This document shows positions 11,864 through 46,605 of a DNA stretch of 64,000 nucleotides, in pieces. Source of the stretch: Puniceicoccaceae bacterium (GTDB lineage: Bacteria; Verrucomicrobiota; Verrucomicrobiia; Opitutales; Coraliomargaritaceae); NCBI GenBank assembly GCA_902587165.1, contig CACIKF010000006.1:1-64000 (forward strand). Direction: 5' to 3'. Position 1 is the first letter of the stretch. Each line of letters opens with the position of its first letter. The position numbers were made by a program, and so were the translations under genes. Under the pieces are notes generated by a model. It did no database searches. It was given only the letters and a program-made list of their open reading frames with translations, and had not been told where the DNA came from.

Positions 11864-14614
11864 CTATTTCAGTGCTGATTGTGCAGCAGCTAAGCGTGCA
11901 ACTGGAACTCGAGGGGGCGAGCAACTGACGTAGTCGAGTCCAGCATTGTGGAAGAATTTAATAGAGGCTGGATCGCCACCGTGCTCGCCGCAAACGCCGA
12001 GCTTGAGATTATTCTTCGCGCTGCGACCCTTTTGGACGCCGATTTCAACGAGCTGACCAACACCCGCTGCATCAATCGATGCGAACGGATTTTGTGGAAG
12101 TATATCGAGATCCTTGTATTGGCCAAGGAACGATCCAGCGTCGTCTCGGCTCATGCCGAGACCAGTCTGGGTCAGGTCATTAGTGCCAAATGAGAAGAAC
12201 TCTGCAGTTTCAGCAATCTCATCTGCTGTCAAAGCACCACGAGGCACTTCGATCATTGTGCCAACGAGGTATTTGAACTTCACGCCTTTTTTCTCCATGA
12301 CTTCAGCAGCTACACGGTGAACCACTGAGACTTGATTCTTGAGCTCGTCAGCGAAACCGACGAGAGGAATCATAACTTCAGGGATTACCTTAATTGGCTT
12401 CTTTAGCTTATAGCAAGCTGCCGCTGCTTCGAAGATCGCACGTGCCTGCATCTCTGTGATTTCCGGATAGGAAATACCGAGACGGCAACCACGGTGACCA
12501 AGCATTGGGTTGGATTCGTGTAGTGCATGCACGCGTTTCGATATCACGTCGACTTTGACTCCGAGAGATTTAGCTAGCTCGCGTTTGGAAGAATCGTCGT
12601 GGGGAAGGAACTCGTGCAGAGGTGGATCAAGAAGGCGGACTGTGACGGGAAGACCACCCATTGCCTTGAATAGACCTGTGAAATCCTTGCGTTGGAATGG
12701 AAGAAGCTTCCTCAGCGCTGCCCGACGTTGTTTTTCGTCTGCGGCCAGAATCATCTGACGCATGAATGTGATACGATCACCTTCGAAGAACATGTGCTCT
12801 GTCCGGCAAAGTCCGATTCCTTGGGCGCCATAAGCAATTGCAGACTTAGCTTGGTCTGGAGAATCGGCATTGGTGCGAACTCTAAGCTTACGATGCTTGT
12901 CAGCCCACTTCATGACTTGGTTATACATCTGATAAGTATAGCTGTCCTGCGCCTTGAGCTTACCGTTGAGCACTTGGTCAACCTCGGATGGAGCGGTGGC
13001 CACTGCACCAGCGAAGATTTCACCAGTTGTGCCATCGATGGAAATATCGTCGCCGTTCTTGAATGTCTTTTTACCGATTTTAAGTGTTTCTTTGCCGTAG
13101 TTGATGGCAACTTCAGCAGCGCCACAAACACAGACCTTGTTCATCTGACGAGCAACGAGTGCGGCGTGAGAAGAAACACCACCACGGGATGTCAGGATAC
13201 CTTCAGCTGCGATCATTCCACGTAAATCTTCCGGTGTGGTTTCAACGCGGCAGAGAATCGCACGGCCACCTTTCGCAGCAACCTTTTCAGCTTCAGGAGC
13301 TGTAAAGCAGATCTTACCGGACGCAGCACCAGGGCCCGCAGGAAGACCTGTAGTAAGTGTCTTGGCCTTCGCGACTGCAGCTGGGTCGAAGACCGCGACG
13401 AGTAGTGAAGATATAGAGTCTGCGGGGATCTTGAGAAGTGCTGTCTTTTGGTCGATCAGTTTTTCCTTAACAAGCTCAACAGCAATTCGAACGGCTGCGA
13501 GACCTGTGCGTTTACCATTACGAGTTTGTAGCATCCAGAGTTTGCCGTCTTCAACCGTGAACTCAAAGTCTTGCATGTCCTTAAAGTGCTTTTCGAGTTT
13601 CTTACGAACTGCCTCGAGATCAGCGTGTGCTTTAGGCATTTCCCTCTTCAGTTCAGCAATCGCGTTCGGTGTGCGGATACCCGCAACCACGTCTTCACCT
13701 TGGGCATTGATGAGGTATTCACCGTAGAATACTTTTTCACCGTTTGCAGGGTCTCGTGTGAAAGCAACACCAGTTGCACAATTATCACCCATATTACCGA
13801 AGACCATGGCCTGAACGTTAACAGCGGTACCCCAAGCAGCAGGGATGCCGTATTTTTGGCGGTAGAGTATTGCGCGCTCGTTCTGCCATGAGTTGAACAC
13901 GGCGCTTACAGAACCCCAGAGTTGCTCGTAAGCGTCTTGAGGGAAAGCGGTACCAGTGCGTTGTTTGATGACTGCCTTGTAGCGCTTAATGAGTTCCTTA
14001 AGGTCTTTTGCAGTGAGCTCGTTGTCTAGTTCAACACCTGCTTCTTTGCGTACTTTTTCAAGAATACCTTCGAACGGGCAGTGATCATTTTCATTAAGGG
14101 CTTGGACGCCCATGACAACATCGCCATACATTTGGATAAATCGGCGGTAGCAATCATATGCGAATGCTGCGTTGCCCGACTCTTTAGCGAGTGCCTTCAC
14201 GGTCTTATCGTTGAGACCAAGGTTAAGGATCGTGTCCATCATACCAGGCATCGACTCACGAGCACCGGAACGAACAGAAAGTAGAAGCGGGTTTTTGGCT
14301 GCACCGAGTTTTTTGCCGACCTCTTTTTCGATTTGAGCGACGGAAGCTTTAATTTCACTAGCAAGTGTTTTGGGATACTGGCGACCGTGGTCGTAGAAGT
14401 AGGTGCAGACATCAGTCGTGATTGTGAAACCAGGAGGGACGGGGAGGCCGATGCGGGCCATCTCTGCGAGATTGGCACCTTTACCGCCGAGTAGCTCTCG
14501 AAGTTTGGAGCTTCCGTCGGTCTTTTGACCAAAGTCGTAGCTGTATTTCACCGATTTTACGCTCTTGCGTTTGACGGCCTTTTTGGTGGCTTTTTTTGCT
14601 TTTTTAGCTGGCAT
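11864..14614 (-). CDS. ppdK: Pyruvate, phosphate dikinase with lysine-rich N-terminal tail
   Basis: A 916-residue enzyme interconverting pyruvate, ATP and phosphate with PEP, AMP and pyrophosphate. The nucleotide-binding domain ([20 protein letters not shown], then [18 protein letters not shown]), the phosphohistidine domain with catalytic His483 in [14 protein letters not shown], and the C-terminal PEP/pyruvate barrel ([33 protein letters not shown]) are all present. Residues 1-23 form an unusual basic tail ([14 protein letters not shown]) absent from typical PPDK and resembling histone H1-like tails; the normal N-terminus begins near residue 24 (YSYDFG). The protein is complete and monocistronic, facing tatC divergently. 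Confidence 0.96.
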
Positions 14615-19560: not shown

Positions 19561-20436
19561 TTATTTCTTTAGCAGTTTTTCCAAATATGGGTTTGGGTAG
19601 CGACGCGACGCGGTGATCGCGTAGAAGTTTTCGCGGATCTCAGGAATTTGGTAGAGCTCGATCAGGCGACCGTTCTTGAGTTCGTCTTGCACTACGACTG
19701 GTGGGACTATAGTGATGGCCTCAGTCTCGCGGGCTATTAGTCGAAGCATGGCCATGGCGTCTACTTCGGCTGCAATGAGTGGGCGAATGCCCTCGCGCTC
19801 CATGATTAGGTCGAAGCTTGCTCGAATATTACTTTCCAAGCTGGGTAGTATCATAGGAATATCTCTCAAATCATGCGGGAACTTAAACTTGCGGCGCTTT
19901 TTAAAAGAAGGCGGGGCAACGAGACTGACTGCTTGTTCGGCCAGTAGTTGGCAGTGTATGTTCGATTCGTTATCGCGTAGCACGGGATTGTTCGATAGCA
20001 CGAGGTCAACCGTGTGTGCCTTTAACTGGGTCATCAAATTTTGTAAACTACCAGAGTGTATCACAACTTCGAGGGCTTGGTCATCTAAGGCTTTCTTTAA
20101 AAAGCTGAGCTGAAAATTTTTAGAAAGTGTCGAAACAGCGCCCACACGGAATACATCACGGTATCGCTTTTTTTGGTTTTGAAGGGTGGCTAGCATTTCA
20201 TCACCCGTACGAAAGATCGTCTCTGCGTAATCGAGCACCATTTTACCTTCCTCCGTCAATGACAGTGTTTTGTGCTGGCGGTCAAAGAGGGCGCATTCGA
20301 GACTCTCTTCTAATTTTTTTAGCTGGATGCTCAGGGCCGACTGGGAAACATGAAGGCTTGTTGCCGCGCGAGTGAGAGTGCCTTCGCGAACAATTGCATG
20401 AAAATATCTTAGGTGATGGTAGTTGAGCTTATTCAT
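19561..20436 (-). CDS. NhaR-like LysR transcriptional regulator, divergent from dabB
   Basis: A 291-residue LysR-type regulator. Residues 1-60 form the winged helix-turn-helix (LNYHHLRYFHAIVREGTLTR, then HVSQSALSIQLKKLEE), with the NYHHL opening typical of the NhaR branch, whose members sense cations or pH. The periplasmic-binding-like effector domain follows. I chose the ATG at 20436; the 18 residues before it are low-complexity. It is divergent from dabB with 76 bases between start codons, the usual arrangement for a LysR protein controlling its neighbour. LysR genes are known beside DAB operons. Control of dabBA is inferred. Confidence 0.9.
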   Translation of the reverse strand: MNKLNYHHLRYFHAIVREGTLTRAATSLHVSQSALSIQLKKLEESLECALFDRQHKTLSLTEEGKMVLDYAETIFRTGDEMLATLQNQKKRYRDVFRVGAVSTLSKNFQLSFLKKALDDQALEVVIHSGSLQNLMTQLKAHTVDLVLSNNPVLRDNESNIHCQLLAEQAVSLVAPPSFKKRRKFKFPHDLRDIPMILPSLESNIRASFDLIMEREGIRPLIAAEVDAMAMLRLIARETEAITIVPPVVVQDELKNGRLIELYQIPEIRENFYAITASRRYPNPYLEKLLKK

Positions 20437-20512
20437 ATGTATATATTTTATAGAATAAAAGTATAATTTACTTATATTAGATAAAATCAAGAAAATATGT
20501 TATATTAGTGGG
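20437..20512. promoter_or_regulatory. lysR-dabB divergent promoter region
   Basis: A very AT-rich 76-base spacer. It contains the inverted repeat AAGTA-TAATT-TACTT (20459-20473) and two copies of TTATATTAG (20472-20480 and 20500-20508), the second next to the dabB start. LysR regulators bind AT-rich T-N11-A dyads in such spacers. Several TATA-like -10 boxes are possible, so I do not name one. Confidence 0.55.
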
Positions 20513-22090
20513 ATGGACATAATTATCAGCTGTCTGACAATCTGGATAGCACCTGCATCGCTCTTGTGGGTTGTGCTTACTTCTAAATGGCTCAATGTTC
20601 GAGCATTCGCAGTTGGTCGCTTAGCTGAGGGTATTGCTTGGGTAAGTGTAGCCTGTGCGACAGTTGCCACCGTGCTATGGGCGCTGTTTGCAAAAAGTCC
20701 TGTCGAGACCACTATCACAAGTGCCAATTGGATCGGTATTCGCTTCGATGCGCTCTCCGCGATCATCCTATTATTGGTCTGCTTTATGGGGGCCATCATT
20801 CTACGCTATTCGAAAAACTATCTCGCTGGAGATGAAAATCAGGGGCACTTCTTTAAATGGATGTGCGTTACACTAGGCGCTGTTATTGCCATGGTGCTCG
20901 CTCCGGGGCTTGTGCAGTTTGCCCTAGCATGGGTTGTTACGAGTTTGGGCTTACATAAGCTATTAATTTATTTCCCTGATCGCTTGGGTACGCTTCTTTC
21001 GTCGCGAAAGAAATCGCTGGTTAGTCGGGTAGGGGACCTTTGCCTGATCGCAGCTTTCTCGGGTATCTATATGATCTACGGTGTTCAAGACTTCGGTCAT
21101 ATCTTTGAAGCCGTACATATTGAGGGTAACTTACTATCTAATAACACTTGGATTGGTTGGTTGATTATTTTTGGCGCGATCCTTAAATCAGCTCAGTTCC
21201 CCTTTCATACTTGGCTGCCCGACACGATGGGCGCACCTACACCCGTGTCCGCGCTTATGCACGCAGGTATTATTAATGGCGGCGGCTACTTGGTGGTTCG
21301 TCTGAGTCCTGTGCTTGCGCATACACTCGGTGCACTTCACATGCTGGCTATCGTCGGTGCCCTAACTGCAGTCTATGCCTCAATGGTCATGCTCTCTCAG
21401 ACCAGTGTGAAGCGTGCACTCGCTTACTCCACTATCGCTCAGATGGGTTTTATGCTTTTGCAATGTGGTCTCGGCGCCTTCCATCTTGCGGTGCTTCATT
21501 TGGTCGCACACTCGCTCTATAAAGGACACGCATTCCTTTCCTGTGGGTCTGCCGTCGAAACAGCAAAAAAGCTCAATGCGAAGCCGCATTATGCACAGCT
21601 AAAGCCGAGTCGCATTTGGCTAGCGATTGGCATCTCTTTCGCGATCGTCCTTGGCCTAAGCATTCCTTTCAATGTCAGTCCATCTGATAAGCCAGGAATG
21701 CTGGTGCTGAGTATGGTGCTTGTGATGGCGCTCACTCAACTTCTCTGGACAGCGATGCGTCGGGGCCAATCTGGTATCGCTTTCGTGGGAACCACAGGGG
21801 TTGCTGGCAGCATCGCCGTACTTTACTACTTACTCGCGATGGTTGCTGAAATGATGTTATCCTCTGTGGTGCCTGCTAAGATGCCAATAGCACCAGTCTT
21901 CGAAACGATTATTGCTGTGCTGCTGCTTGGTTTCTTGGTCACGTCAATTCGCTTCCAAGACGGTGAACCCGGATTCTTAACGGTCGCCTATAAACGCCGT
22001 CTCTATGTCCATGCGCTCAATGGTTTTTACATGAATACCTTGGCTAATCGGCTTGCTCGTGCCATCGGCCTCATGCCGAGCAAGCGCTAG
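20513..22090 (+). CDS. dabB: DabB, NuoL/MrpA-like membrane subunit of inorganic carbon transporter
   Basis: A 525-residue protein with about 13-14 membrane helices from the proton-conducting family of NuoL and MrpA. Conserved stretches include FPFHTWLPDTMGAPTPVSAL, MHAGIINGGGYLVVR and VKRALAYSTIAQMGFMLLQC. In DAB systems DabB couples a cation gradient to DabA to accumulate bicarbonate. The gene lies 22 bases before dabA, the standard pair. This separates it from complex I or Mrp subunits, none of which is nearby. The start codon is ATG. Confidence 0.93.
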   Translation: MDIIISCLTIWIAPASLLWVVLTSKWLNVRAFAVGRLAEGIAWVSVACATVATVLWALFAKSPVETTITSANWIGIRFDALSAIILLLVCFMGAIILRYSKNYLAGDENQGHFFKWMCVTLGAVIAMVLAPGLVQFALAWVVTSLGLHKLLIYFPDRLGTLLSSRKKSLVSRVGDLCLIAAFSGIYMIYGVQDFGHIFEAVHIEGNLLSNNTWIGWLIIFGAILKSAQFPFHTWLPDTMGAPTPVSALMHAGIINGGGYLVVRLSPVLAHTLGALHMLAIVGALTAVYASMVMLSQTSVKRALAYSTIAQMGFMLLQCGLGAFHLAVLHLVAHSLYKGHAFLSCGSAVETAKKLNAKPHYAQLKPSRIWLAIGISFAIVLGLSIPFNVSPSDKPGMLVLSMVLVMALTQLLWTAMRRGQSGIAFVGTTGVAGSIAVLYYLLAMVAEMMLSSVVPAKMPIAPVFETIIAVLLLGFLVTSIRFQDGEPGFLTVAYKRRLYVHALNGFYMNTLANRLARAIGLMPSKR

Positions 22091-22112
22091 ACCTCTTAAC
22101 TAACTTCGTACG

Positions 22113-24548
22113 ATGGATAACATTGAAAACGTTAGGTCACACACACTTTCTAGTCAGATCGACTCAGCGACTTCTAAAATCGCACCGCTTTGGCCGCTTT
22201 CGCACTTTGTCGCGGTTAACCCTTTTGTCGGTTTTGCCGACCATAACTTTGCTTACACCGCCGAGGCGCACAAACGAGTGCAAGGATCAGACCTAGTGAT
22301 GCCGCTTACTTGGTTTAAGGAGAAGTTCGATTCAGGTGATATCAGGCTCGAGAATCTTCGCGCTGCCGTCGCAGTCGCCACTCCTGAAGTTGTTGAGAGC
22401 TTTGAATCAGCTGATCAAGTACTCAGCGCTGAAAATGTAGTGGCACTGCTCTCTTGTTCCGAAAAAGACCCTGATCCGCTTTACCAAACTTGCTCCTTCA
22501 GTGCGTATCTCGATTCGCGTGAAGATACGCAGTGGCAGCACGTAATACGCGAGGAAGTAGCCAAGTGGGTTGCTGCTTATGACGACGAGGGTCAATCTTC
22601 CTGGAAGTTCCCATGGAAGGATCTCAGTCTCTTTGTAGGATGGAAAGCTGCCGCTCGGATCGACCGCAACCCAGAGCTGAATGGACTGACTGGTTTTCGC
22701 AAGTTCGTTGCCTCGCTGCCAGACAATCCACACGCTGTGATCGATCAAGCCGTCGAGATGCTCCAGATGCCAGAGGAGCGCATCGAGTCCTTATTCTACA
22801 GTATTATGCTAACACTGCCTGGCTGGGCAGGGCACCTGCGCTACAAGGATCGTGAGCTTGAGATTCGCGGTGAGTCAGGGGACTCCTTAATCCAGCTACT
22901 AGCTATCCTGCTCAGTTACGATATGGCGCTTTATGCGAACCATTCGGAAAGCAAAGATTGCGCCCTCGGTTGGCAGCGTAATTTGATGCAGGACCCTGCA
23001 GAAAAGGGCTCGCTTACGCTTCCCATCGACCTAGCGCAACGCCTCGTCTGGCAGTCGGCTATGGAGCACGTTTTTGAGGAAAAACTTTGCGCAGATATTA
23101 AGCCAAAAGCCAAAAGTGAGACTGTCTCCCCGAGGCCTGACGTCCAAGCAATCTTTTGCATCGATGTGCGCTCTGAGGTTTACCGCCGCTCGCTCGAGTT
23201 GACCAATGCAAACATTCAAACGATCGGTTTCGCTGGTTTCTTCGGTTTACCGATCGAACATAGAATCCCTGGTCTAGGTGGCTCGCAATCGCGCTGCCCC
23301 GTGCTCCTGGCACCTCCTATACGGACTTCCGAGAACATGTTAGGCATTGAAGTTTCTGATTTCGATCAACTTGTTCTTCAGCGCGTTGATGCACGTGAGA
23401 GCAAACGCTCATGGAAGCGCTTCAAGGAAGCCGCTTCTTCCTGCTTTACCTTCGTAGAGACAATTGGCCTTAGCTACGCAGTGGAGTTAGTCAAAGATGC
23501 TTTTGGTCTATCTGCGAAATCTAGCAAAGATAAAGGTGCACCTGCATTTTTGGATAAACTTTCGACTGCGGATCGAGCGAGTCTGGCCGAAGATATCTTA
23601 AAGGGCCTCGATTTGTTGGAAAACTTTGCTCGCATCGTACTTTTCTGTGGGCACGGCAGTGCGACTAAGAACAATCCCTATGCCTCTGGTCTCGATTGCG
23701 GTGCTTGTGGTGGTCACGCAGGAGATGCGAATGCTCGTCTTGCTGCTGCCTTACTCAACCAAGCCGATGTCCGTATTGAACTATCTGAGCGCGGCATTTT
23801 GATTCCCTCTGATACCGTATTTATTGGTGGTTTTCACAATACTACAACCGACGAGGTTTCTCTCTTCGACTATGAAGTCGCCGACGCGAGACTGATCGAA
23901 GAACTGACTGAATCGCTGGACCAAGCTGGCTTACTTTGTGCGACCGAACGCTCCGCTCGATTCAGTGAAGCCGCCGAGCAGAGTGACATTATATCTGCTG
24001 TCCGTTTGCGTAGCCGTGACTGGGGGCAAGTCCGGCCTGAGTGGGCGCTTGCCGGTAACGCTGCCATTATCATTGCGCCTCGCTCGTGGACAGCAGAGGC
24101 GAATCTTCAGAGCCGCGCCTTCCTTCACGAATATTCCGCCAAGAGCGACCCTCAAGGAGCCGTCCTAGAAAACGTCATCGCTGGACCCATGGTCGTCGCT
24201 AGCTGGATCAACTTGCAATACTTCGGGTCTTCGACCGACAACGCCCATTTTGGTAGCGGCCACAAATCGATACACAATGTAGTCGGCGGTGTGGGCGTAG
24301 CGCTCGGTAATGAATACGACCTACGCCCTGGTTTGCCTTTCCAGTCTGTGCACGATGGCAAAAAGCTTATCCACGAACCCCTTCGTCTCCACGCCTGTAT
24401 CGCAGCTGACACAAAGATCCTTGACGGTATACTAGAGCGTCAGAATCACGTTCGGGACCTCGTCGAGAACGCTTGGGTTCACCTTATCTCCCTAGGCGAG
24501 GATGGTCAGCAGTGGATACGCCGCCAATCTGATGGCACTTGGAAGTAA
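22113..24548 (+). CDS. dabA: DabA, zinc-dependent inorganic carbon transport subunit (DUF2309)
   Basis: An 811-residue DUF2309/UPF0753 protein. With DabB it forms an energy-coupled complex that hydrates CO2 to bicarbonate in one direction. Beta-carbonic-anhydrase-like active-site residues are present: Cys349 and Asp351 in FCIDVRSEVYRR, His514 in LFCGHGSATKNN, and Cys529 in SGLDCGACGGHAGDANAR. The His-to-Cys spacing of 15 agrees with the studied Halothiobacillus protein (His524, Cys539). Other family landmarks are the N-terminal PLWPLSHFVAVNPFVG and HNVVGGVGVALGNEYDLRPG near the end. It is intact and probably cotranscribed with dabB. No Rubisco or carboxysome gene is in the window, so the use may be anaplerotic. 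Confidence 0.96.
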   Translation: MDNIENVRSHTLSSQIDSATSKIAPLWPLSHFVAVNPFVGFADHNFAYTAEAHKRVQGSDLVMPLTWFKEKFDSGDIRLENLRAAVAVATPEVVESFESADQVLSAENVVALLSCSEKDPDPLYQTCSFSAYLDSREDTQWQHVIREEVAKWVAAYDDEGQSSWKFPWKDLSLFVGWKAAARIDRNPELNGLTGFRKFVASLPDNPHAVIDQAVEMLQMPEERIESLFYSIMLTLPGWAGHLRYKDRELEIRGESGDSLIQLLAILLSYDMALYANHSESKDCALGWQRNLMQDPAEKGSLTLPIDLAQRLVWQSAMEHVFEEKLCADIKPKAKSETVSPRPDVQAIFCIDVRSEVYRRSLELTNANIQTIGFAGFFGLPIEHRIPGLGGSQSRCPVLLAPPIRTSENMLGIEVSDFDQLVLQRVDARESKRSWKRFKEAASSCFTFVETIGLSYAVELVKDAFGLSAKSSKDKGAPAFLDKLSTADRASLAEDILKGLDLLENFARIVLFCGHGSATKNNPYASGLDCGACGGHAGDANARLAAALLNQADVRIELSERGILIPSDTVFIGGFHNTTTDEVSLFDYEVADARLIEELTESLDQAGLLCATERSARFSEAAEQSDIISAVRLRSRDWGQVRPEWALAGNAAIIIAPRSWTAEANLQSRAFLHEYSAKSDPQGAVLENVIAGPMVVASWINLQYFGSSTDNAHFGSGHKSIHNVVGGVGVALGNEYDLRPGLPFQSVHDGKKLIHEPLRLHACIAADTKILDGILERQNHVRDLVENAWVHLISLGEDGQQWIRRQSDGTWK

Positions 24549-24700
24549 TGTGCAGCAAACTCGGCATATGCAGCTGATTAAAAGTCCCAGAGGAGGGTAT
24601 TTTGAATTTTGTCCTCTACTTGATACACTAGCCTTTTGTGTTTAGTTACACTTGTGCCCGTAAGCTTGCAAGTTGTATAAAGAAATCCCCTTTTATAAGT

Positions 24701-25549
24701 ATGCGCTTTTTACTCAGTCTCACTGCTTTTCATTTTCTGGCCTTAATTGCTGTTCACGCAGCCTCCATCGAGGGTCGTGTCCTCAAAGTCTTGTCGGATA
24801 CACGTTCGTTCGAACTTGAGTTAACACAATCGGCGGACGCAAAGCTCAAATTAGGTAGCACACACATCTTTCGTGTTGGTTTGGGCGATCTCATGATCGG
24901 CTATCAAGGCCGTAAGATCAAAGCCAACGCTGCTTACTATGGCAAGCAATGGCACTTGGAGCAGATATTCCCCATTGATGGTTTAGGCGCGAAGGCCGCG
25001 CGCGATGTTAATCATCAGCTCCATCAGGCTACCGCTGCAATGAGCCGTCGTAAATACGTGAAGCTGGGTGAATACATTCCCAACTTCGCTATGATCGATC
25101 AGCATGGTGAGTTCCTTCAAATACGCCAGCTTCAGGGTAGGCCCTTTATGCTCAACTTTATCTTCACTCGTTGCACAGTGCCTAAGATGTGTCCTGCCTC
25201 AAGCACTCGCATGGCGGACATGCAAGACGCTGCCCGCGAAGCGGAACTCAAAGGCCTCCATTTTGTCAGTATTACCTTTGATCCTGACTTCGATTCGCCC
25301 GGTATTCTAAATCAGTATGCCGATGGCTACGGCATGGAGTCGGAAAATTTTCACCTACTGACGATGAATCAAAGTGTGGTCGACGATCTCCTTCGTCAGT
25401 TTGGTATTCTGACCATGGAGGAGGATGGCACCATTAACCATACGATGGCGACCCTCTTGGTCGATGCTAACGGTCGAGTGGCTTACCGCAAAGAAGGCGC
25501 CACCTGGTCGACCAAAGATTTTATGGAGGCAGCGACTAAGCTCCTGTAA
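24701..25549 (+). CDS. SCO1/SenC-family protein with CX5C copper site
   Basis: A 282-residue exported thioredoxin-fold protein. SCO1 proteins carry copper to cytochrome oxidase or act as thiol redox proteins. The family core begins at IPNFAMIDQHGE. The metal/redox site reads FIFTRCTVPKMCPASS, with Cys158 and Cys164 separated by five residues rather than the usual three, and the third ligand His247 lies in INHTMATLLVD. An extra 110-residue N-terminal domain precedes the core. I chose the ATG at 24701, which opens a clean signal peptide; the frame extends to GTG at 24638. It lies 152 bases after dabA. Confidence 0.85.
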   Translation: MRFLLSLTAFHFLALIAVHAASIEGRVLKVLSDTRSFELELTQSADAKLKLGSTHIFRVGLGDLMIGYQGRKIKANAAYYGKQWHLEQIFPIDGLGAKAARDVNHQLHQATAAMSRRKYVKLGEYIPNFAMIDQHGEFLQIRQLQGRPFMLNFIFTRCTVPKMCPASSTRMADMQDAAREAELKGLHFVSITFDPDFDSPGILNQYADGYGMESENFHLLTMNQSVVDDLLRQFGILTMEEDGTINHTMATLLVDANGRVAYRKEGATWSTKDFMEAATKLL

Positions 25550-25603
25550 AAATAATTCCAGCTTGCGAAAGAGCATCACATTGACACATTTTGGAAATAA
25601 TAT

Positions 25604-26551
25604 ATGTCAGTTTTTTCCACTAAATCTTCACCTATGGCTACTTGGTTTTCGATAGCCACGCTAAGCGTGATCTTTGTAGGTGCTTATTTTTTCCTGCGTG
25701 CGCTACCAGATGTGGAGTGTGGCTTATTACACTACATCGAAATTGTGAATGCGAATGGGGAGATTGAGTTCTGCGCGACGAATCATGCAGGCTTTTTAGA
25801 TCTTTCACGACTGGAGTATCCTATCAAAGCGAAGTTGAGCTATGAAAATACGATCGCTAAAGGCGAGCCTTTGCGTGTGCGACTGGATTTAAAGACTGCT
25901 GGCGGGATGTCGATCGCGCCGCACGAGTTGGCGGTAACGCATACGGAGAAAATGCACGTCATGGTGATCGATCCCTCGCTTGAGGACTACTGTCATGTTC
26001 ACCCTAAAGCAGAGGGGCTAGACGGTCAGTATTTTTTCGATTTTACGCCAGCGATGGCTGGGACCTACAAAGTTTTTACCGAGATCGTGCCTCTTCGCAG
26101 TCGGCGACAAGCGATCGCACTCTCTGAGCTTGAAGTACCAGGACAATCGAACGCGCCTGTATTCAAGCGCTCCATGGTGAGCTTGGTCGACAGCGTTCGT
26201 TTTGAATTGCTCAAGGTGCCTGATATTCTTAAGACGGGGCGTGACTATCGTCTCCAGCTTAAAATTACCGATCTTGCAGGCAATGCGATCGCTCTCGAGA
26301 CAGTGATGGGTGCAAAGGGGCACATGGTTGCCTTTGACTCTGTCGGTACTGGCTTTGCCCACATGCATCCGATCGGGAGTGTGGCCTCAATTCGCACGGC
26401 GGGCCTTAGAGGTGGCGGTGCTTTTGATTCCAGCGACACGGATCTAAGCTTCATGTTTAACGTGCCCAACCCAGGTTGGTATCGCCTTTTCGCTCAGATC
26501 CAAGTCGAAGGTGAAGCTGTATTTGGGCGATTTGATCTTAAAGTAGAATAA
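25604..26551 (+). CDS. Membrane-anchored protein with two histidine-rich metal-site-like motifs
   Basis: A 315-residue protein with one N-terminal membrane helix (about residues 12-32) and a long periplasmic part with two similar halves. The first half has HVMVIDPSLEDYCHVHP and the second HMVAFDSVGTGFAHMHP; both fit an H-x(11-15)-H-x-H-P pattern seen in predicted copper-handling periplasmic proteins. The repeats suggest tandem beta-sandwich domains. It follows the SCO1-type gene by 54 bases and precedes the next gene by four, so a joint role in periplasmic metal delivery is a reasonable inference. I do not recognise a named family. Confidence 0.7.
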   Translation: MSVFSTKSSPMATWFSIATLSVIFVGAYFFLRALPDVECGLLHYIEIVNANGEIEFCATNHAGFLDLSRLEYPIKAKLSYENTIAKGEPLRVRLDLKTAGGMSIAPHELAVTHTEKMHVMVIDPSLEDYCHVHPKAEGLDGQYFFDFTPAMAGTYKVFTEIVPLRSRRQAIALSELEVPGQSNAPVFKRSMVSLVDSVRFELLKVPDILKTGRDYRLQLKITDLAGNAIALETVMGAKGHMVAFDSVGTGFAHMHPIGSVASIRTAGLRGGGAFDSSDTDLSFMFNVPNPGWYRLFAQIQVEGEAVFGRFDLKVE

Positions 26552-26555
26552 AGTT

Positions 26556-27080
26556 ATGGAAGATTTTGAAAGCTTTAAAGCCTCACGCATAAGGATGGAT
26601 CCTAGCTCGCGTCAAATGACGGAACACCAATGGAAACAATCTTACGCTGCTAACCAAAGTGCGCGTGAGCGGGTGGGTGCTGGTTCAGGCTCGGAGGGTA
26701 AAGTTATTAAACGCAAAAAATCAAAGTCGACGAATTCGTCCGATCTTAAAAGTTCGCTGAGGGCTTCACAGCAGCTAGGCGCATTTTCCGATTTGAATAA
26801 TTTGCGCCAAGTTGTGCGTCAGCAATCTGCCTATTCCGATCTTCGTCTAATCATCGACATCTTAGCATGGGTCTCGATTGCTGTGTTCATACTGATTGCA
26901 GTGGTCTCGATGTTTTTCAACACCTCCGCGGCTGGCGCAATTATATCTCTACTTTGGGCGGGGATTCAAATTATCGGAGTAGTAGTCGCTCGCCTACTTG
27001 TGCATGTGTTGGTTGATATTCCTGACATAGCCCTCCATCAATCATTGGAAAAGTCTACCGCACAGCCTGTTGTAAGTTAA
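26556..27080 (+). CDS. Small membrane protein of unknown function
   Basis: A 174-residue protein. Residues 1-85 are hydrophilic, basic and serine-rich (KVIKRKKSKSTNSSDLKSS), and residues about 103-150 form two membrane helices. It begins four bases after the preceding gene, so it is probably translated from the same message as the histidine-motif protein. I recognise no family. The topology predicts a cytoplasmic N-terminal tail. Confidence 0.7.
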   Translation: MEDFESFKASRIRMDPSSRQMTEHQWKQSYAANQSARERVGAGSGSEGKVIKRKKSKSTNSSDLKSSLRASQQLGAFSDLNNLRQVVRQQSAYSDLRLIIDILAWVSIAVFILIAVVSMFFNTSAAGAIISLLWAGIQIIGVVVARLLVHVLVDIPDIALHQSLEKSTAQPVVS

Positions 27081-32479: not shown

Positions 32480-32647
32480 AACGAGATGGTGAAGTTCTGT
32501 AAGGCACCGCTCTTTTACTAAGTTAATTAACACCTTCTTTTGGCTTAGAGTATTTTCTTTTACTGGCTCTCAATCGAGACTACCTGAAGATAAGCTGTGG
32601 TAAAAGGTGCTTGCCTTGATGCAAAGCTCGGATTTTTTCAGAGGACT

Positions 32648-34270
32648 ATGAAAATGACGACTGCCGTTCACTATCTATTTGTTGCCCTCGGCCTCTTTGC
32701 GACTAACCTAATTTTTGCGGCAGGCGGCGGTGGGGCATCACATGGCGGTGATCTTGTTTTTCCGATTCCAGAAACGGCTTATTCAGAAATGGAAGCGCAT
32801 CATGCCGAGGAGTTGGGGCATGAACTTGGCCTGATCGAGCAGTTGAAAATTCGCGCCGCGGCGGATCCTTTCAACGTCGTTGCGACGATCATTTTCTTTT
32901 TCGCCGTGGTGCATACCTTTTTGGCGACCAGCTTTAACAAAATGGCGCATAAGTTCGAGCTTGAGCACCGTGCGGATGTCAGTTCGCACAATAGGATTTA
33001 TGTGGAGGGGCGGCAACCTGTAAGCTTCAAGGCGACGCTTTTTCACTTCCTCGGTGAGGTGGAGGCAATCTTTGGTATTTGGCTGATTCCGCTACTTATT
33101 TCGCTCGTGCTTTTGGTGCCTGATGGCCTCAGTACGGCAGCCTTCTACGTAGACACGCGAAACTACACGGAGCCAGTCTTCGTTGTCATCATTATGGCGA
33201 TTGCATCGAGTCGCCCCGTGATCCAATTCGCTGAATCCGCAATGCGGGGCGTGGCTTCGATTGGTAAGGAAAGCCCCGCCGCCTGGTGGCTCTCGATCTT
33301 GATCGTCGCTCCAGTGCTAGGATCCTTTATTACTGAGCCAGCTGCCATGACGATTGCAGCGCTCCTGCTTGGGCAACAATTTTACCTACTCGATCCTACG
33401 CCAACATTTAAATACGCTACCCTCGGGCTACTTTTTGTGAATATCTCGGTTGGCGGCACGCTGACACACTTTGCGGCACCGCCCGTGCTGATGGTGGCTG
33501 ATGCCTGGCACTGGGATCTGCCCTACATGTTCACCCACTTCGGTTGGCGTGCCGTACTTGGTGTCGTCGTGGCGACAGTGATCTACTATTTTGTCTTTCG
33601 TAAAAACTTTGCCTCACTGAAGGAGCGTGCTAAAGAGTTGCAGGCGTCAAAGACTGCTGAGCCAGAGCCTGAACCTGCACCATTATGGGTAATTCTCGTG
33701 CACCTAGGTTTTGTTGCTTGGACAGTATTTACACTGCATCATCCCGCCTTTTTCATCGGTGGTTTTCTCTTCTTCCTCGCCTTCACTATGGCGACGCACC
33801 ACCATCAATACGATATTCAATTAAAGTCACCGCTACTGGTTGGCTTTTTCCTCGCAGGACTCGTCACGCATGGCGGTTTGCAGGGTTGGTGGATTTCTCC
33901 CGTTCTCAGCTCGCTAGCGGAAGTGCCGCTCTTCATCGGGGCGACTGTTTTGACTGCGTTCAATGATAACGCCGCGATTACATTCCTAGCCTCGCAAGTG
34001 CCCGCCTTTAGTCCTGATATCCTAGTTGCCGAGCAGTGGGTCTCCAAGACAGGTGCCGCCCTTGCCGATGCCCGCGGATTGGAATACGCCGTCGTGGCGG
34101 GAGCCGTTACCGGTGGTGGCCTCACGGTGATCGCCAATGCGCCTAACCCCGCCGGCCAGAGCATTCTGAATAAGCACTTTAAAAATGGCATCTCGCCCAT
34201 CGGCCTCCTCCTTGGTGCGCTCTTCCCAACTCTAATCATGGCAGTTATGTTCATGGTTTTGCCTCACTAG
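32648..34270 (+). CDS. Putative Na+/H+ antiporter
   Basis: A 540-residue membrane protein with a likely signal or first helix, a histidine-rich external stretch (HAEELGHELG) and about 11-12 membrane helices. The pattern VLGSFITEPAAMTIAALLL and the later FNDNAAITFLASQVP fit the ion-transporter superfamily, and the overall layout matches the family labelled putative Na+/H+ antiporter (PF07399). I chose the ATG at 32648, which has AGAGGA five bases upstream; the frame also opens from a GTG at 32597. Cation specificity is not proven. The next gene begins 17 bases downstream. Confidence 0.85.
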   Translation: MKMTTAVHYLFVALGLFATNLIFAAGGGGASHGGDLVFPIPETAYSEMEAHHAEELGHELGLIEQLKIRAAADPFNVVATIIFFFAVVHTFLATSFNKMAHKFELEHRADVSSHNRIYVEGRQPVSFKATLFHFLGEVEAIFGIWLIPLLISLVLLVPDGLSTAAFYVDTRNYTEPVFVVIIMAIASSRPVIQFAESAMRGVASIGKESPAAWWLSILIVAPVLGSFITEPAAMTIAALLLGQQFYLLDPTPTFKYATLGLLFVNISVGGTLTHFAAPPVLMVADAWHWDLPYMFTHFGWRAVLGVVVATVIYYFVFRKNFASLKERAKELQASKTAEPEPEPAPLWVILVHLGFVAWTVFTLHHPAFFIGGFLFFLAFTMATHHHQYDIQLKSPLLVGFFLAGLVTHGGLQGWWISPVLSSLAEVPLFIGATVLTAFNDNAAITFLASQVPAFSPDILVAEQWVSKTGAALADARGLEYAVVAGAVTGGGLTVIANAPNPAGQSILNKHFKNGISPIGLLLGALFPTLIMAVMFMVLPH

Positions 34271-40230: not shown

Positions 40231-40740
40231 ATGTCTGAAAATTTGAAATGTAGTCATTGCAATAAACCCGCAACCGTCCATCTGACTCAGATCGTCAACA
40301 ACAAGATTATCAAGGTCGATCTATGCGAGTCTTGTGCGCAGGCTAAGGGAGTCACTGACTCCGAGGGTTACTCTCTTGCGGACCTTTTATCTAAGACCAA
40401 TCTCACCCTCGAAAAAGGTGAAGCTAGGATCGCTTGCCCAGATTGCGGATTGACCACTGCGGACTTTCGCCGAACAGGTCGACTCGGATGCGCTGCCTGT
40501 TACCGTAGCTTCGTAACATTGTTGCAGCCAGTTCTGGAGGATATGCACGCAGGCACCGCACACAAGGGTAAGATCCCCAAGGTCGCGCTCTCTCGACAGA
40601 CCAGCATGGCTAAGCTAAATGACCTTGAAAATGCGCTTCATCGGGCCATTGCTGAGGAAGCCTACGAAGACGCAGCCAAATTCCGCGACGAAATCCAAGC
40701 ATGCAAAAAGGCCGCTGAATACGAAGCCATCCAGTCATGA
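40231..40740 (+). CDS. mcsA: McsA-like zinc-finger/UVR protein, activator of McsB
   Basis: A 169-residue protein with two pairs of CxxC motifs at the N-terminus (CSHC and CESC) and two more in the middle (CPDC and CAAC), each pair fit to bind zinc, and a C-terminal UVR motif (LENALHRAIAEEAYEDAAKFRDEI minus its end). McsA activates the arginine kinase McsB. Its stop overlaps the mcsB start by four bases (ATGA), giving translational coupling. Confidence 0.92.
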   Translation: MSENLKCSHCNKPATVHLTQIVNNKIIKVDLCESCAQAKGVTDSEGYSLADLLSKTNLTLEKGEARIACPDCGLTTADFRRTGRLGCAACYRSFVTLLQPVLEDMHAGTAHKGKIPKVALSRQTSMAKLNDLENALHRAIAEEAYEDAAKFRDEIQACKKAAEYEAIQS

Positions 40741-41825
40741 TTGAGTCCATTATAAATTCAGACAAAGCTGAACTGACGCAAAATACTAAAAAGGGCGCTC
40801 CTGTAGTCCTCAGCACACGCGTGCGCTTGGCTCGTAATCTAGTAGACGCCCCATTTCCTGAGCGTGCCAATATGGCACAGCGTAGTGACTTAATGGCTAG
40901 ATGTGCCAATCAAATTGCCGATCTTTCGCAAATGAAGAACGGCGCTTTCTTTGATGTTGCCGAACTTTCTGACTTAGAAAGACAAGTTCTCCTCGAACGC
41001 CACCTCATCAGCCGGGAACTCTGCGATTCTCAATCTGGCTCCGGTGTTTTCATCAATAAAGATCAGACTTGTTCAGTCATGATCAACGAAGAGGACCATC
41101 TTCGCATCCAATTCCTTAAGACTGGCTTCAGTTTGCGTTCCGTCTGGAAGCAAATCGACCGATTTGATTCTAGCTTGGAAAATGAGCTCGACCTCGCTTT
41201 TTCTTCTGAGTTCGGCTACCTAACCGCTTGCCCGACAAACTTGGGTACCGGCCTACGTGCCTCTGTAATGCTGCATCTGCCTGGACTCGTAATTTCTAAT
41301 AATATGGATAAGGTCATACGTGCGGTCAACCAACTCGGCATCACCGTGCGCGGCCTCTTTGGAGAAGGCTCCGATGCGACTGGCCACGTTTTTCAGATAT
41401 CCAATCAACAGACCTTAGGAGAGAGTGAGGAGGAGATTCTGTCCCGTTTAGCCAGCGTATTCAAGACCATCATCGATCACGAAATTAATGCCCGTTTTAA
41501 ATACTTAGAAGAAAATTGCGCCTGTTTGCTTGACCAGATCGGGCGCGCTTTTGGAGTGCTTAAAAATGCCTACGTACTTAATTCGAACGAGGCCATGAAT
41601 TTGCTCTCTCTAATGCGCTTGGCTGTGGATCTTGAGATGTTGCCTGAGGTTAATCGCTCTGATATCGACAGGCTTTTCATCGAGTGCCAGCCTGGTCATA
41701 TTCAATACGTCGCAGGAGAAGGCATCGAGGCTGATGCCCGTGACCTTTGCCGCGCGAAGACGCTGCGCGAAGAATTTGTACAATTACCCGCACTTGATTT
41801 TGACAAGGTCAACAAACTAGGTTAA
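40737..41825 (+). CDS. mcsB: Protein arginine kinase McsB
   Basis: A 362-residue member of the ATP:guanido phosphotransferase family. McsB phosphorylates arginines on misfolded proteins, marking them for ClpCP. The family pattern is clear: VVLSTRVRLARNL near residue 25, the NEED motif in VMINEEDHLRIQ, YLTACPTNLGTGLRASVMLH and the loop RGLFGEGSDATGHVFQISNQ. The length agrees with the single-domain bacterial enzyme. It is coupled to mcsA and followed by clpC after 11 bases. Confidence 0.95.
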   Translation: MIESIINSDKAELTQNTKKGAPVVLSTRVRLARNLVDAPFPERANMAQRSDLMARCANQIADLSQMKNGAFFDVAELSDLERQVLLERHLISRELCDSQSGSGVFINKDQTCSVMINEEDHLRIQFLKTGFSLRSVWKQIDRFDSSLENELDLAFSSEFGYLTACPTNLGTGLRASVMLHLPGLVISNNMDKVIRAVNQLGITVRGLFGEGSDATGHVFQISNQQTLGESEEEILSRLASVFKTIIDHEINARFKYLEENCACLLDQIGRAFGVLKNAYVLNSNEAMNLLSLMRLAVDLEMLPEVNRSDIDRLFIECQPGHIQYVAGEGIEADARDLCRAKTLREEFVQLPALDFDKVNKLG

Positions 41826-41836
41826 TTTAACTACAT

Positions 41837-44323
41837 ATGGAACCTATGAATAACTTCACCCCACGCGCTCAACAAGTTTTGGCGCTGGCCCGTAAAGAGG
41901 CCGATCGTTTCCATCACAACTATGTGGGGACTGAGCACCTTCTACTCGGTCTGATTAACCTTGGACAAGGTGTTGCTGTCAATGTGCTCCAAAAAATGGA
42001 TCTCGATCTTCAGACGGTGCGCGCCGCTGTCGAGAAGCAAGTAGGCACTGGCCCCGAGAGTAAGCCGTCGGGTAATATTCCTTATACGCCACGCGTTAAA
42101 AAGGTATTAGCACTCGCGGGTAAAGAAGCCAAAGCCTTGAACCACTCATATGTCGGCACAGAGCATATTCTCCTTGGTCTCCTACGTGAAGGTGAGGGCG
42201 TCGCCGCGCGCGTCCTCAAATCCCTCGATGTAGATATTGAGCGTTGTCGAAACGAAATTCTCGCTGAGCTTGATCCTAATTTTTCTGGTGAGACTGGAGA
42301 GGCTGCAGCAGCTGGCTCCAAGTCTAGTGGTCCTGATGTCAAGAAGGACGGTAAGACACCTGCTCTTAAAGCATTTGGTCGCGACCTTACCGAACTTGCT
42401 AAAAATGGAGAGCTCGACCCAGTCGTTGGTCGCAGTGATGAGATCCGCCGGGTAGTCCAGATTTTATGCCGCCGCACCAAGAATAACCCAGTGCTCATCG
42501 GAGAAGCCGGTGTCGGCAAGACCGCGATTATCGAAGGTCTTGCTCAAGAAATTTCCTCTGGCATCGTGCCCGAAATCCTCGCGGACAAGCGTCTGATTAC
42601 TCTCGACCTCGCCCTGATGGTCGCTGGAACCAAGTATCGTGGCCAATTTGAAGAACGCATCAAAGCAGTCATGGATGAAATTCGTCGTGCCAAGAATGTT
42701 ATCATCTTTATTGATGAACTTCACACGATCGTCGGCGCAGGCGCAGCCGAAGGTGCTATGGATGCATCTAACATTTTCAAGCCTGCGCTCAGTCGTGGCG
42801 AGCTACAATGCATAGGTGCGACGACCTTGGCGGAATACCGCAAATACATAGAAAAGGACAGTGCGCTTGACCGCCGCTTCCAGTCCGTGAAAGTCGAAGC
42901 ACCTTCAATTGAAGACACGATCCTCATCCTAAAGGGTATCCGCGGCAAATACGAAGATCATCACAAGGTCGAATTTACCGACAGTGCACTTGACGCCGCC
43001 GCCAAGCTCTCCGAGCGCTATATCACTTCGCGCTTCCTTCCCGATAAAGCGATCGATATCCTTGATGAGGCTGGTGCCCGTGCCCGTATTGAGTCACTCA
43101 AACAGCCAGTCGAGTTTGAAAACATGGCCGCTGAGATAGATGAGGTCTGCGCCAAAAAAGAAGATGCCATTGCTAAGCAACATTTCGAAGGCGCGGCTAA
43201 ATACCGCGACGAAGAGAAGCAGTTACGCAAAAAACAGACTAACGCAATCGAAGAGTGGAAGAAGACTCGTGAAGAGAACCGCCTCGTCGTCGACGAAGAG
43301 GAAATGCTCCAGGTTGTCGCCGCATGGACTGGCATTCCACTATCTAAAATGGAAGAGGCTGAGAGTAAGAAGTTGCTTAAGCTCGAAGCTGAGCTACAAA
43401 GCGAAGTTATTGGACAGACGATCGCGACCGAAGTCATTTCCAAAGCCCTTCGTCGCTCCCGCGCCGATCTTAAAGATCCCAAGCGTCCGATTGGCTCTTT
43501 TATGTTCCTAGGTCCTACGGGTGTAGGAAAGACACTGCTTGCTAAAGTTTTGGCTGAAGAGATGTTTGGTGATAAGGATGCCATCATTCAGATCGATATG
43601 TCTGAATACATGGAAAAATTTGCTGTCTCCCGCCTTGTCGGTTCGCCTCCCGGCTACGTCGGCTATGAAGAGGGCGGCCAACTGACAGAAGCTGTTCGCC
43701 GCAAGCCTTACTCCGTCGTGCTCTTTGATGAAATCGAGAAAGCTCACCCTGACGTTGTCCAGTTGCTCCTACAAGTTCTTGAGGAAGGTCGATTAACCGA
43801 CAGCCTTGGTCGCAAGATCGACTTTCGTAATACCATTTTAATTATGACGTCTAATGTCGGCGCGGACATTCTCCAGCGTAACACATCGATGGGTTTCGGA
43901 ATTGAGAGCAATGCCGAGAACGAGTATGAAAAAATTCGTGAAAAGATCCTAGATGAGACCAAGCGTGTCTTTAAGCCTGAGTTCCTCAACCGCCTGAACG
44001 ACCTTGTCATCTTCAAATCACTCGCTCGTGAGGACATGACCGAGATCGTCGATTTAGAGCTACGAAATGTCGCTACTCGCCTCAAAGAGCGTGAGTTATC
44101 GTTCGACTTTTCCAAAGAGTGCAAGGACTTCCTAATCGACAAAGGGTATGACGAAAAATACGGAGCACGCCCACTACGACGCGCAGTTGAAAAGTATCTA
44201 GAAGATTCCCTCGCTGAAGCTATTCTAGCGGGAGAGATCAAACCAGGTGAAGTTATCAAAGTCACAGTCGACGAGGAATCCAAAAGTCTGGAGTTTAAAC
44301 AAGATCAGCCTGTCTCCTCCTAA
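41837..44323 (+). CDS. clpC: ATP-dependent Clp protease unfoldase ClpC
   Basis: An 828-residue class I AAA+ unfoldase. Two N-terminal Clp_N repeats ([13 protein letters not shown] and [13 protein letters not shown]) bind adaptors or phosphoarginine. The first AAA module has Walker [11 protein letters not shown] and Walker [19 protein letters not shown]; a UVR motif follows in the middle domain ([19 protein letters not shown]); the second AAA module has [12 protein letters not shown] and the [10 protein letters not shown] pore loop. It works with ClpP and McsB on damaged proteins. It is the last gene of mcsA-mcsB-clpC; ctsR, usual in Firmicutes, is absent. Confidence 0.97.
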
Positions 44324-44640: not shown

Positions 44641-46605
44641 ATGACTACTGATAATTCTTCTATGGAGTCGGTCTCACACGAAGACCGTAAATTCTCCCCT
44701 TCCTCTGAATTTGTCGATGCTGCCCACATTAGTGGGGATAAGGCCTATCGGGCGCTTTACGAGAAGAGTATTCAAGACCCCGAAGCCTTTTGGGCAGAAG
44801 CGGCTGGAGAGCTACACTGGTTCAAAAAGTGGGACACGGTGCTCAACGACACCGATGCGCCATTTTTCAAATGGTTTGATGGTAGCCGCACAAATCTTTC
44901 TTACAATTGCCTCGATCGTCACATCGATGCGGGTCTGGGCGATAAGATAGCTATTCACTGGGAGGGCGAGCCCGGCGATTCGCGTGATATCACATACGTG
45001 CAACTCCATCTCGAGGTCTGTCGCCTTGCGAATGCCCTCAAAGCGCGTGGTGTGCAAAAGGGCGATCGGATCGCAGTCTATTTGCCGATGATTCCTGAGT
45101 TGGCCATCTCAGTACTAGCTTGTGCGCGTATTGGTGCTGTGCACTCCGTTATTTTTGCTGGCTTTTCAGCCGACTCAATTCGTGATCGCGTACTTGATAG
45201 TGAAACGCGTATGGTTATCACGGCGGATGGCGGCTACCGTCGTGGCAAGGTGCTGGAGCTTAAAAAGATTGTTGATGAAGGTGTAATGACTTGCGACTGC
45301 GTACAAGATGTAATAGTGGTTAAACGTGGTGGAAATCATTTTGTTGATTGCCCAATGATGGACGGCCGTGACATATGGTATCACGATCTCGTCGCTAATG
45401 TGGACGATAATTGTCCCGCCGAAGAAATGGAAGCTGAAGATTTGCTATTCCTACTCTACACGAGTGGCACGACGGGTAAGCCTAAAGGAATCATGCACAC
45501 CACGGCGGGTTATCAAGTGTATAGCTTCCTTACTTCAAAGTATATTTTTGACCTAAAGCAAGACGATGTTTATTGGTGTACTGCGGATGTAGGCTGGATC
45601 ACAGGGCACACTTACATTGTCTATGGAATCATGCAGAACGGCGTCACTCAAGTGATGTATGAGGGTGCTCCGAACCACCCTGACGAGGGGCGCTTTTGGG
45701 AAATTATTGAGAAGTATAAGGTTTCCATTTTTTACACTGCACCGACTGCGATTCGTGCCTTCATGAAGTGGGGTGATGATTGGGTAACGGGTAAAGATAT
45801 TTCTTCGCTCCGCCTACTCGGCACGGTTGGCGAACCGATTAACCCCGAAGCTTGGATTTGGTATCACAAGATGATCGGTGCAGAGCGTTGCCCGATTGTA
45901 GACACTTGGTGGCAAACCGAGACGGGTGGTCACATGCTCACACCGATGCCAGGTGCGACCGCGACAAAGCCTGGTTGCGCAACGGTTCCATTCTTCGGGG
46001 TCGAGCCAGCAATTTTAATGGACGATGGTAGCGAAGTTGAAGCAGGCATTTTAGCCATAAAGAAACCATGGCCGGGAATGCTGCGTGGTATTTACGGCGA
46101 TCCACAGCGTTTTAAAGATACCTACTGGTGTAAGTGGGGCGGAAAATATTATTTTCCTGGCGACGGCGCACGTTGCGATGAGGATGGGTATATTTGGATT
46201 CTAGGTCGTGTCGACGACGTGGTCAACGTATCGGGACATCGTATCGGTACCGCGGAGTTAGAGAGTGTCTTCGTCGAGCATGAAGACGTGGCCGAATCCG
46301 CAGTGGTCGGTATTCCCCATGAGATTAAAGGCCAAGGGCTAGTTGCCTTCGTCACTGTGATTGACGGTCGCGATCAAGACGAACATCTACGTAAGGAACT
46401 CGTCGCAATGATCGATAAGGGCATCGGCAAGTTTGCTCGGCCTGAACGTATTCTCTTTTCTTCGGATCTACCTAAAACACGCTCTGGTAAGATTATGCGC
46501 CGGATTCTGCGCGACATCGCTGAGGGTAAAGACTTGGGCAATGTAACGACCTTGGCCGATCCGACAGTGGTCAAAGATTTGCAGAAGCAATACTTGAAGG
46601 CCTAG
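44641..46605 (+). CDS. acs: Acetyl-CoA synthetase
   Basis: A 654-residue AMP-forming ligase that makes acetyl-CoA from acetate, CoA and ATP. The adenylate signature is LLYTSGTTGKPKGIMHT; other landmarks are TADVGWITGHTYIVYG, the acetate-pocket WWQTETGGHM and the C-terminal lid motif PKTRSGKIMRRILR whose lysine is the known acetylation-controlled residue. Length matches E. coli Acs. It stands alone and converges on the VC0807-like gene. Confidence 0.97.
   Translation: MTTDNSSMESVSHEDRKFSPSSEFVDAAHISGDKAYRALYEKSIQDPEAFWAEAAGELHWFKKWDTVLNDTDAPFFKWFDGSRTNLSYNCLDRHIDAGLGDKIAIHWEGEPGDSRDITYVQLHLEVCRLANALKARGVQKGDRIAVYLPMIPELAISVLACARIGAVHSVIFAGFSADSIRDRVLDSETRMVITADGGYRRGKVLELKKIVDEGVMTCDCVQDVIVVKRGGNHFVDCPMMDGRDIWYHDLVANVDDNCPAEEMEAEDLLFLLYTSGTTGKPKGIMHTTAGYQVYSFLTSKYIFDLKQDDVYWCTADVGWITGHTYIVYGIMQNGVTQVMYEGAPNHPDEGRFWEIIEKYKVSIFYTAPTAIRAFMKWGDDWVTGKDISSLRLLGTVGEPINPEAWIWYHKMIGAERCPIVDTWWQTETGGHMLTPMPGATATKPGCATVPFFGVEPAILMDDGSEVEAGILAIKKPWPGMLRGIYGDPQRFKDTYWCKWGGKYYFPGDGARCDEDGYIWILGRVDDVVNVSGHRIGTAELESVFVEHEDVAESAVVGIPHEIKGQGLVAFVTVIDGRDQDEHLRKELVAMIDKGIGKFARPERILFSSDLPKTRSGKIMRRILRDIAEGKDLGNVTTLADPTVVKDLQKQYLKA

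Follow-up and report, generated by a model that had tools for sequence, protein, structure and literature searches.

What role does a DAB-type operon for inorganic carbon accumulation play in a bacterium that appears to be heterotrophic, and what controls it? The locus lies in a stretch of 64,000 nucleotides (the window) from a Puniceicoccaceae MAG with marine relatives; by DabA, its best named relative is Puniceicoccaceae MAG ALOHA_ZT_54, at 95% identity. The host assembly (G000) comprises 1.85 Mb in 28 contigs and is 79% complete. An initial annotation of the window described a dabB-dabA operon with a divergent LysR-family gene, and our analysis placed all three genes, each intact, at the same positions:

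19561..20436, minus strand: dab-linked LysR-type regulator, 291 aa from the ATG at 20436; Pfam HTH_1 and LysR_substrate domains
20471..20491, plus strand: candidate LysR operator CTTATATTAGATAAAATCAAG, a conserved intergenic element that holds the T-N11-A dyad TTATATTAGATAA
20513..22090, plus strand: dabB, membrane subunit, 525 aa; Pfam Proton_antipo_M, 159 bits
22113..24548, plus strand: dabA, zinc beta-CA-like catalytic subunit, 811 aa; PF10070, 786 bits, profile positions 1-747 of 747

A mechanically assigned TTG start of the LysR gene at 20490 was rejected, since relatives match only from the ATG at 20436 onwards. With the ATG start, the region between the LysR gene and dabB measures 76 bp (20437-20512), and the LysR gene is flanked by an RsmJ-like gene and dabB. 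The mechanical ORFs of the other 18 LysR proteins found in such cassettes are 290-327 aa long.

We compared the two subunits with the DAB2 complex of Halothiobacillus neapolitanus (PDB 9rd0), using the residues named in the report of its structure (PMC13144422). Homology extended over nearly all of DabA (phmmer E 2.2e-156 to DabA2, residues 7-811) and over residues 74-515 of DabB (E 1.8e-71 to DabB2), which is full length, as had been claimed. All 11 tested positions of DabA (C349, D351, R353, S354, A374, E449, H514, C529, H575, D580 and L646) were identical to those of DabA2. The active site, which had been described as complete, was indeed so: C349, H514 and C529 align with the zinc ligands C351, H524 and C539, and D351 aligns with D353, so that the D353-R355 dyad of DabA2 is kept as D351-R353. 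The finger residue Glu444 of DabA2 corresponds to E449, and its strictly conserved Leu658 to L646. DabB, a member of the PF00361 family whose gene adjoins dabA, retained the NuoL-like proton-path residues; 10 of its 11 tested positions were identical to DabB2, the sole change being valine for isoleucine at position 151, where there is no Glu. Across 19 cassettes, the 11 DabA positions were invariant except for D580, which is E in three, and 8 of the tested DabB positions were invariant, the exceptions being 141, 175 and 225.

Given that these residues are conserved, the complex is expected to function like DAB2, from which the system differs in the residue at position 151 of DabB and in having a host with no detected RuBisCO. 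We consider it probable that dabBA encodes a DAB (vectorial carbonic anhydrase) complex that supplies bicarbonate to the cell under the control of the divergent LysR protein. CO2 would diffuse into the cell, and its hydration would take place at the zinc site buried in DabA, next to the Asp-Arg dyad. Inward movement of protons through DabB and the DabA finger would drive this reaction in one direction, leading to accumulation of bicarbonate in the cytoplasm, as in the model of proton-driven, one-way hydration put forward for DAB2 (PMC13144422).

A second system for comparison is MpsAB of Staphylococcus aureus, which likewise pairs a PF00361 protein with a PF10070 protein in a heterotroph, with no carbonic anhydrase (CA) found alongside (PMC6689103, PMC8552792). 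MpsAB is reported to supply bicarbonate, to allow growth in air and to complement a CA mutant (PMC6689103), and S. aureus itself appears, from two accounts, to lack a CA (PMC8567241, PMC8552792). It differs from the window system in belonging to another phylum, in that a divergent LysR gene is present here, and in that its coupling ion is disputed. According to one proposal, MpsAB may cotransport sodium and bicarbonate (PMC6689103), and it has been argued to use sodium; unlike DAB2, it rescued a strain deficient in sodium antiporters (PMC13144422). The window complex could similarly be a sodium-coupled bicarbonate transporter, as the relatives of the host are marine and Na+ would be a natural coupling ion in the sodium-rich ocean. 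However, the zinc site and every tested proton-path residue match DAB2, with the exception of the I151 to V change, and for DAB2 itself sodium coupling has been argued against (PMC13144422). We therefore regard a sodium-coupled transporter as unlikely, although sequence alone cannot settle the choice between protons and sodium.

We then turned to the regulator. The initial annotation had called it NhaR-type and suggested sensing of sodium or pH. NhaR (NF008284) was in fact the top NCBIfam LysR model for the protein, but the score of 146 bits fell below the equivalog cut-off of 219, and identity to E. coli NhaR was 25%. Both proteins belong to the LysR family, but the window gene lies beside dabBA instead of nhaA. 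On the basis of the score, the identity and the neighbouring genes, identification of the regulator as NhaR was not supported, nor was a Na+ or pH signal for it.

Linkage of the regulator to dabBA was surveyed in 21 dab loci (the window, L013-L026 and L041-L046); L001-L012 duplicate loci that carry other numbers, and G178, with dabA on two contigs, was outside the neighbour survey. An intact divergent LysR gene was found beside dabBA in 19 of the 21, which come from Opitutales and Gammaproteobacteria. The two others were a locus whose contig begins inside dabB (L014), excluded from the cassette count, and one with a LysR remnant (L046, in genome G036), excluded from the alignments. Identity of the other 18 dab-linked LysR proteins to that of the window was 42-98%, apart from a different LysR in the L023 cassette (30%), which groups with NhaR. 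Within the family, a LysR ortholog of at least 73% identity was present in 9 of 11 genomes with dabA and in none of the 32 without it (threshold 1e-40; Fisher p 1e-7). Distances between LysR proteins correlated with those between DabA proteins over the 19 cassettes (Mantel r 0.91, p 0.0001), as expected for co-inheritance, with a further contribution from shared host ancestry.

These data bear on the proposal that the locus is a module serving mainly sodium or pH homeostasis, with the supply of carbon in second place, and that its regulator is of the NhaR type. Besides the top-scoring model, this proposal could draw on a putative Na+/H+ antiporter gene (PF07399, 580 bits) at 32597-34270, 8 kb beyond dabA, and on a LysR tree in which NhaR fell among the dab-linked proteins on a very long branch. 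That tree was rooted with CynR, and long branches inside the dab-linked group also carried three paralogs (L060-L062) and the L023 LysR; we judged the rooting unreliable and did not use it. The score below the NhaR cut-off, the low identity to NhaR, the position of the regulator gene beside dabBA in nearly all loci and the fully conserved zinc site all speak against such a module, which we hold to be very improbable. The antiporter gene lies 12 kb from the LysR gene and showed no sign of a tie to it.

In the DAB reading, the dedicated LysR protein would probably control dabB through an element in the intergenic region, on shortage of inorganic carbon. LysR proteins favour T-N11-A sites. The block at 20471-20491 was the best conserved in an alignment of the LysR-dabB intergenic regions of 12 cassettes, which took in all 19 except the five gammaproteobacterial loci, L042 and L045, with the strict T-N11-A dyad in 5 of the 12 and a shifted dyad in L044. 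Its pattern, which was derived from this same alignment, matched once in the window, with 0 matches expected. The exact 12-base core recurred in nine other distinct dab loci (L013, L015, L016, L019, L020, L041, L043, L044 and L046) and was not found in L017, L018, L021-L026, L042 or L045. We propose the element as a candidate LysR operator; with the conserved LysR gene, it offers a concrete candidate regulator.

The observation that no Rubisco was in view extended to the whole assembly. PF00016, the RuBisCO large subunit, was not found in the 79%-complete host genome and had no match in 42 of 43 family genomes, the host included; all 20 family genomes with a completeness of 90% or more and a contamination of 5% or less lacked it. 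The sole match came from G033, a member of the genus with 6% contamination and a second, partial LeuRS match. The heterotrophic neighbours that had been listed were also confirmed, acs at 44641-46605 and ppdK at 11864-14614 (TIGR01828, 1294 bits). That the cassette serves the carbon-concentrating mechanism of an autotroph, with RuBisCO encoded in the 21% of the genome that the assembly lacks, is extremely unlikely: the incomplete assembly and the match in G033 would allow it, but the family-wide absence and the contamination of G033, with its second LeuRS match, speak against it. Since no RuBisCO was found, the bicarbonate made by the DAB complex would feed ordinary carboxylases, such as acetyl-CoA carboxylase, carbamoyl-phosphate synthase and an anaplerotic carboxylase.

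The locus is thus a case of DAB where RuBisCO is undetected. This had been taken as unusual for a presumed heterotroph, a view that did not hold, given MpsAB of the heterotroph S. aureus (PMC6689103) and a report that the genes of this toolkit, DACs included, are widespread in autotrophs and heterotrophs (PMC10880623). Of the earlier interpretation, the DAB complex with its intact active site and proton path and the apparently heterotrophic host stand; the unusualness and the sodium reading drawn from NhaR do not. Our literature search found no paper on DAB or MpsAB in Verrucomicrobiota; the founding DAB paper of 2019, which lay outside that search, may list such phyla. As DAB in heterotrophs was already known, the addition made here is a comparative pattern of dab and gamma-CA genes.

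No match to an alpha-, beta-, gamma- or iota-type CA was found in the host genome (79% complete) or in its relatives G029, G030 and G032. Among the 43 family genomes, a beta-CA was present in 13, an alpha-CA in none, and a YrdA-like gamma-CA homologue in 33, a count that includes a weak partial match in G008 (2.5e-4); PF08332, the family that includes iota-CA, matched in 1 of 14 genus genomes. A general exclusion between dab and CA was not supported at either rank (Fisher p 0.25-0.71). Beta-CA was found in 6 of 13 genomes with dab and 78 of 210 without it across the order (p 0.56), and in 4 of 11 against 9 of 32 in the family (p 0.71); for gamma-CA the family-wide figures were 7 of 11 and 26 of 32 (p 0.25), with G036 counted as having dab. 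The dab cassettes of G020 and G045 each have a beta-CA gene as an immediate neighbour. Five genomes without dab also had no beta-, alpha- or gamma-CA match (G012, G021, G035, G037 and G038; 64-88% complete); a PF08332 search that covered the last three, with G012 and G021 outside it, matched in G037 only. The dabA genes of L042 and L045 (Opitutales genomes G121 and G045) were 34-35% identical to that of the window and grouped with gammaproteobacterial dabA, and they probably represent a separate acquisition within the order.

A reciprocal pattern was seen among the close relatives of the host. In G036, a gamma-CA homologue is flanked by an MBL-fold gene and an SRAP gene, and holB and nth come next (families confirmed by Pfam). 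The homologue shares 37% identity with YrdA and, among NCBIfam models, scores best with gamma carbonic anhydrase, though its 176 bits stay below the cut-off of 250; in view of this score, its CO2-hydrating activity is putative. CA activity has been shown for an E. coli gamma-CA that consists of YrdA extended by 72 residues at the N terminus (PMC7470111). The host genome has the same gene order within a contig, except that gamma-CA is missing and 306 bases separate SRAP from MBL. In G029, G030 and G032, both the gamma-CA and the MBL gene were gone, leaving 222-223 bases from SRAP to the next gene. Gamma-CA was therefore absent from a conserved, contig-internal gene order in all four genomes (79%, 89%, 85% and 92% complete for G000, G029, G030 and G032, respectively), with two different gaps. 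A four-protein tree gave the topology (G000,(((G029,G030),G032),G036)) with UFBoot values of 99-100. As both G036 and the outgroup G027 have the homologue, this topology implies at least two losses of gamma-CA, unless the gene was regained.

The dab cassette of G036, on the other hand, was degraded. Only stretches matching residues 1-33 and 246-291 of the LysR protein were found, and dabB and dabA each carried a frame change. All three cassette genes were broken, compared with 2 of 16 other genes checked (Fisher p 0.010), these two being LeuRS and, close to the gamma-CA site, a gene of 614 aa. Because these genes are frame-changed too, the breaks in dabA and dabB could be assembly errors; the LysR deletion, of about 210 codons, is harder to explain in this way. 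This suggests, from one small clade, that gamma-CA persisted where the cassette fell into decay and disappeared from lineages whose dabA is intact. With the gamma-CA homologue gone, DAB appears to be the one CO2-hydrating system that can be recognised in the subclade of the window.

Tentatively, and with clearly less confidence than in the DAB assignment itself, we raise the reading, less likely than not, that in this streamlined marine lineage a proton-driven DAB serves as the only CO2-hydrating system (gamma-CA having been lost at least twice with dab intact and kept where dab decayed), and that the LysR protein is a dedicated sensor of inorganic carbon that moves between phyla with dabBA as one cassette. 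The case for this reading became weaker when a second gene outside the G036 cassette proved to be broken and the gamma-CA of that genome scored short of its cut-off. In the group of the window, the usual carbonic anhydrases may have been replaced by DAB. The MpsAB literature, as represented by PMC8552792, gives no clear explanation for the distribution of MpsAB and CA, and the pattern in five close relatives provides a small natural test of whether DAB and an ordinary CA can stand in for one another.

Other differences were noted around these sites. The host genome has an MBL-fold gene adjoining the gamma-CA site that G029, G030 and G032 lack, and three genes (301, 337 and 330 aa) found in both G000 and G029 between the 614-aa gene and lepA were unmatched in the corresponding G036 stretch (L079). 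No LysR match was found in the whole assembly of G032, whose contig ends inside dabB (L014). Downstream of dabA, the window carries a SCO1/SenC-like gene and two genes without a Pfam match (24638-27080). The SCO gene adjoins dabA in L013-L016, L018, L020 and L046, and not in L019, L021 or L041; its tie to DAB is putative. Further along, at 40737-44323, a gene with an ATP:guanido phosphotransferase domain is followed by a ClpC-like AAA gene, a pair that we take to resemble the McsB-ClpC system of protein-arginine phosphorylation. Relatives of these two genes also adjoin the dab cassette in L017.
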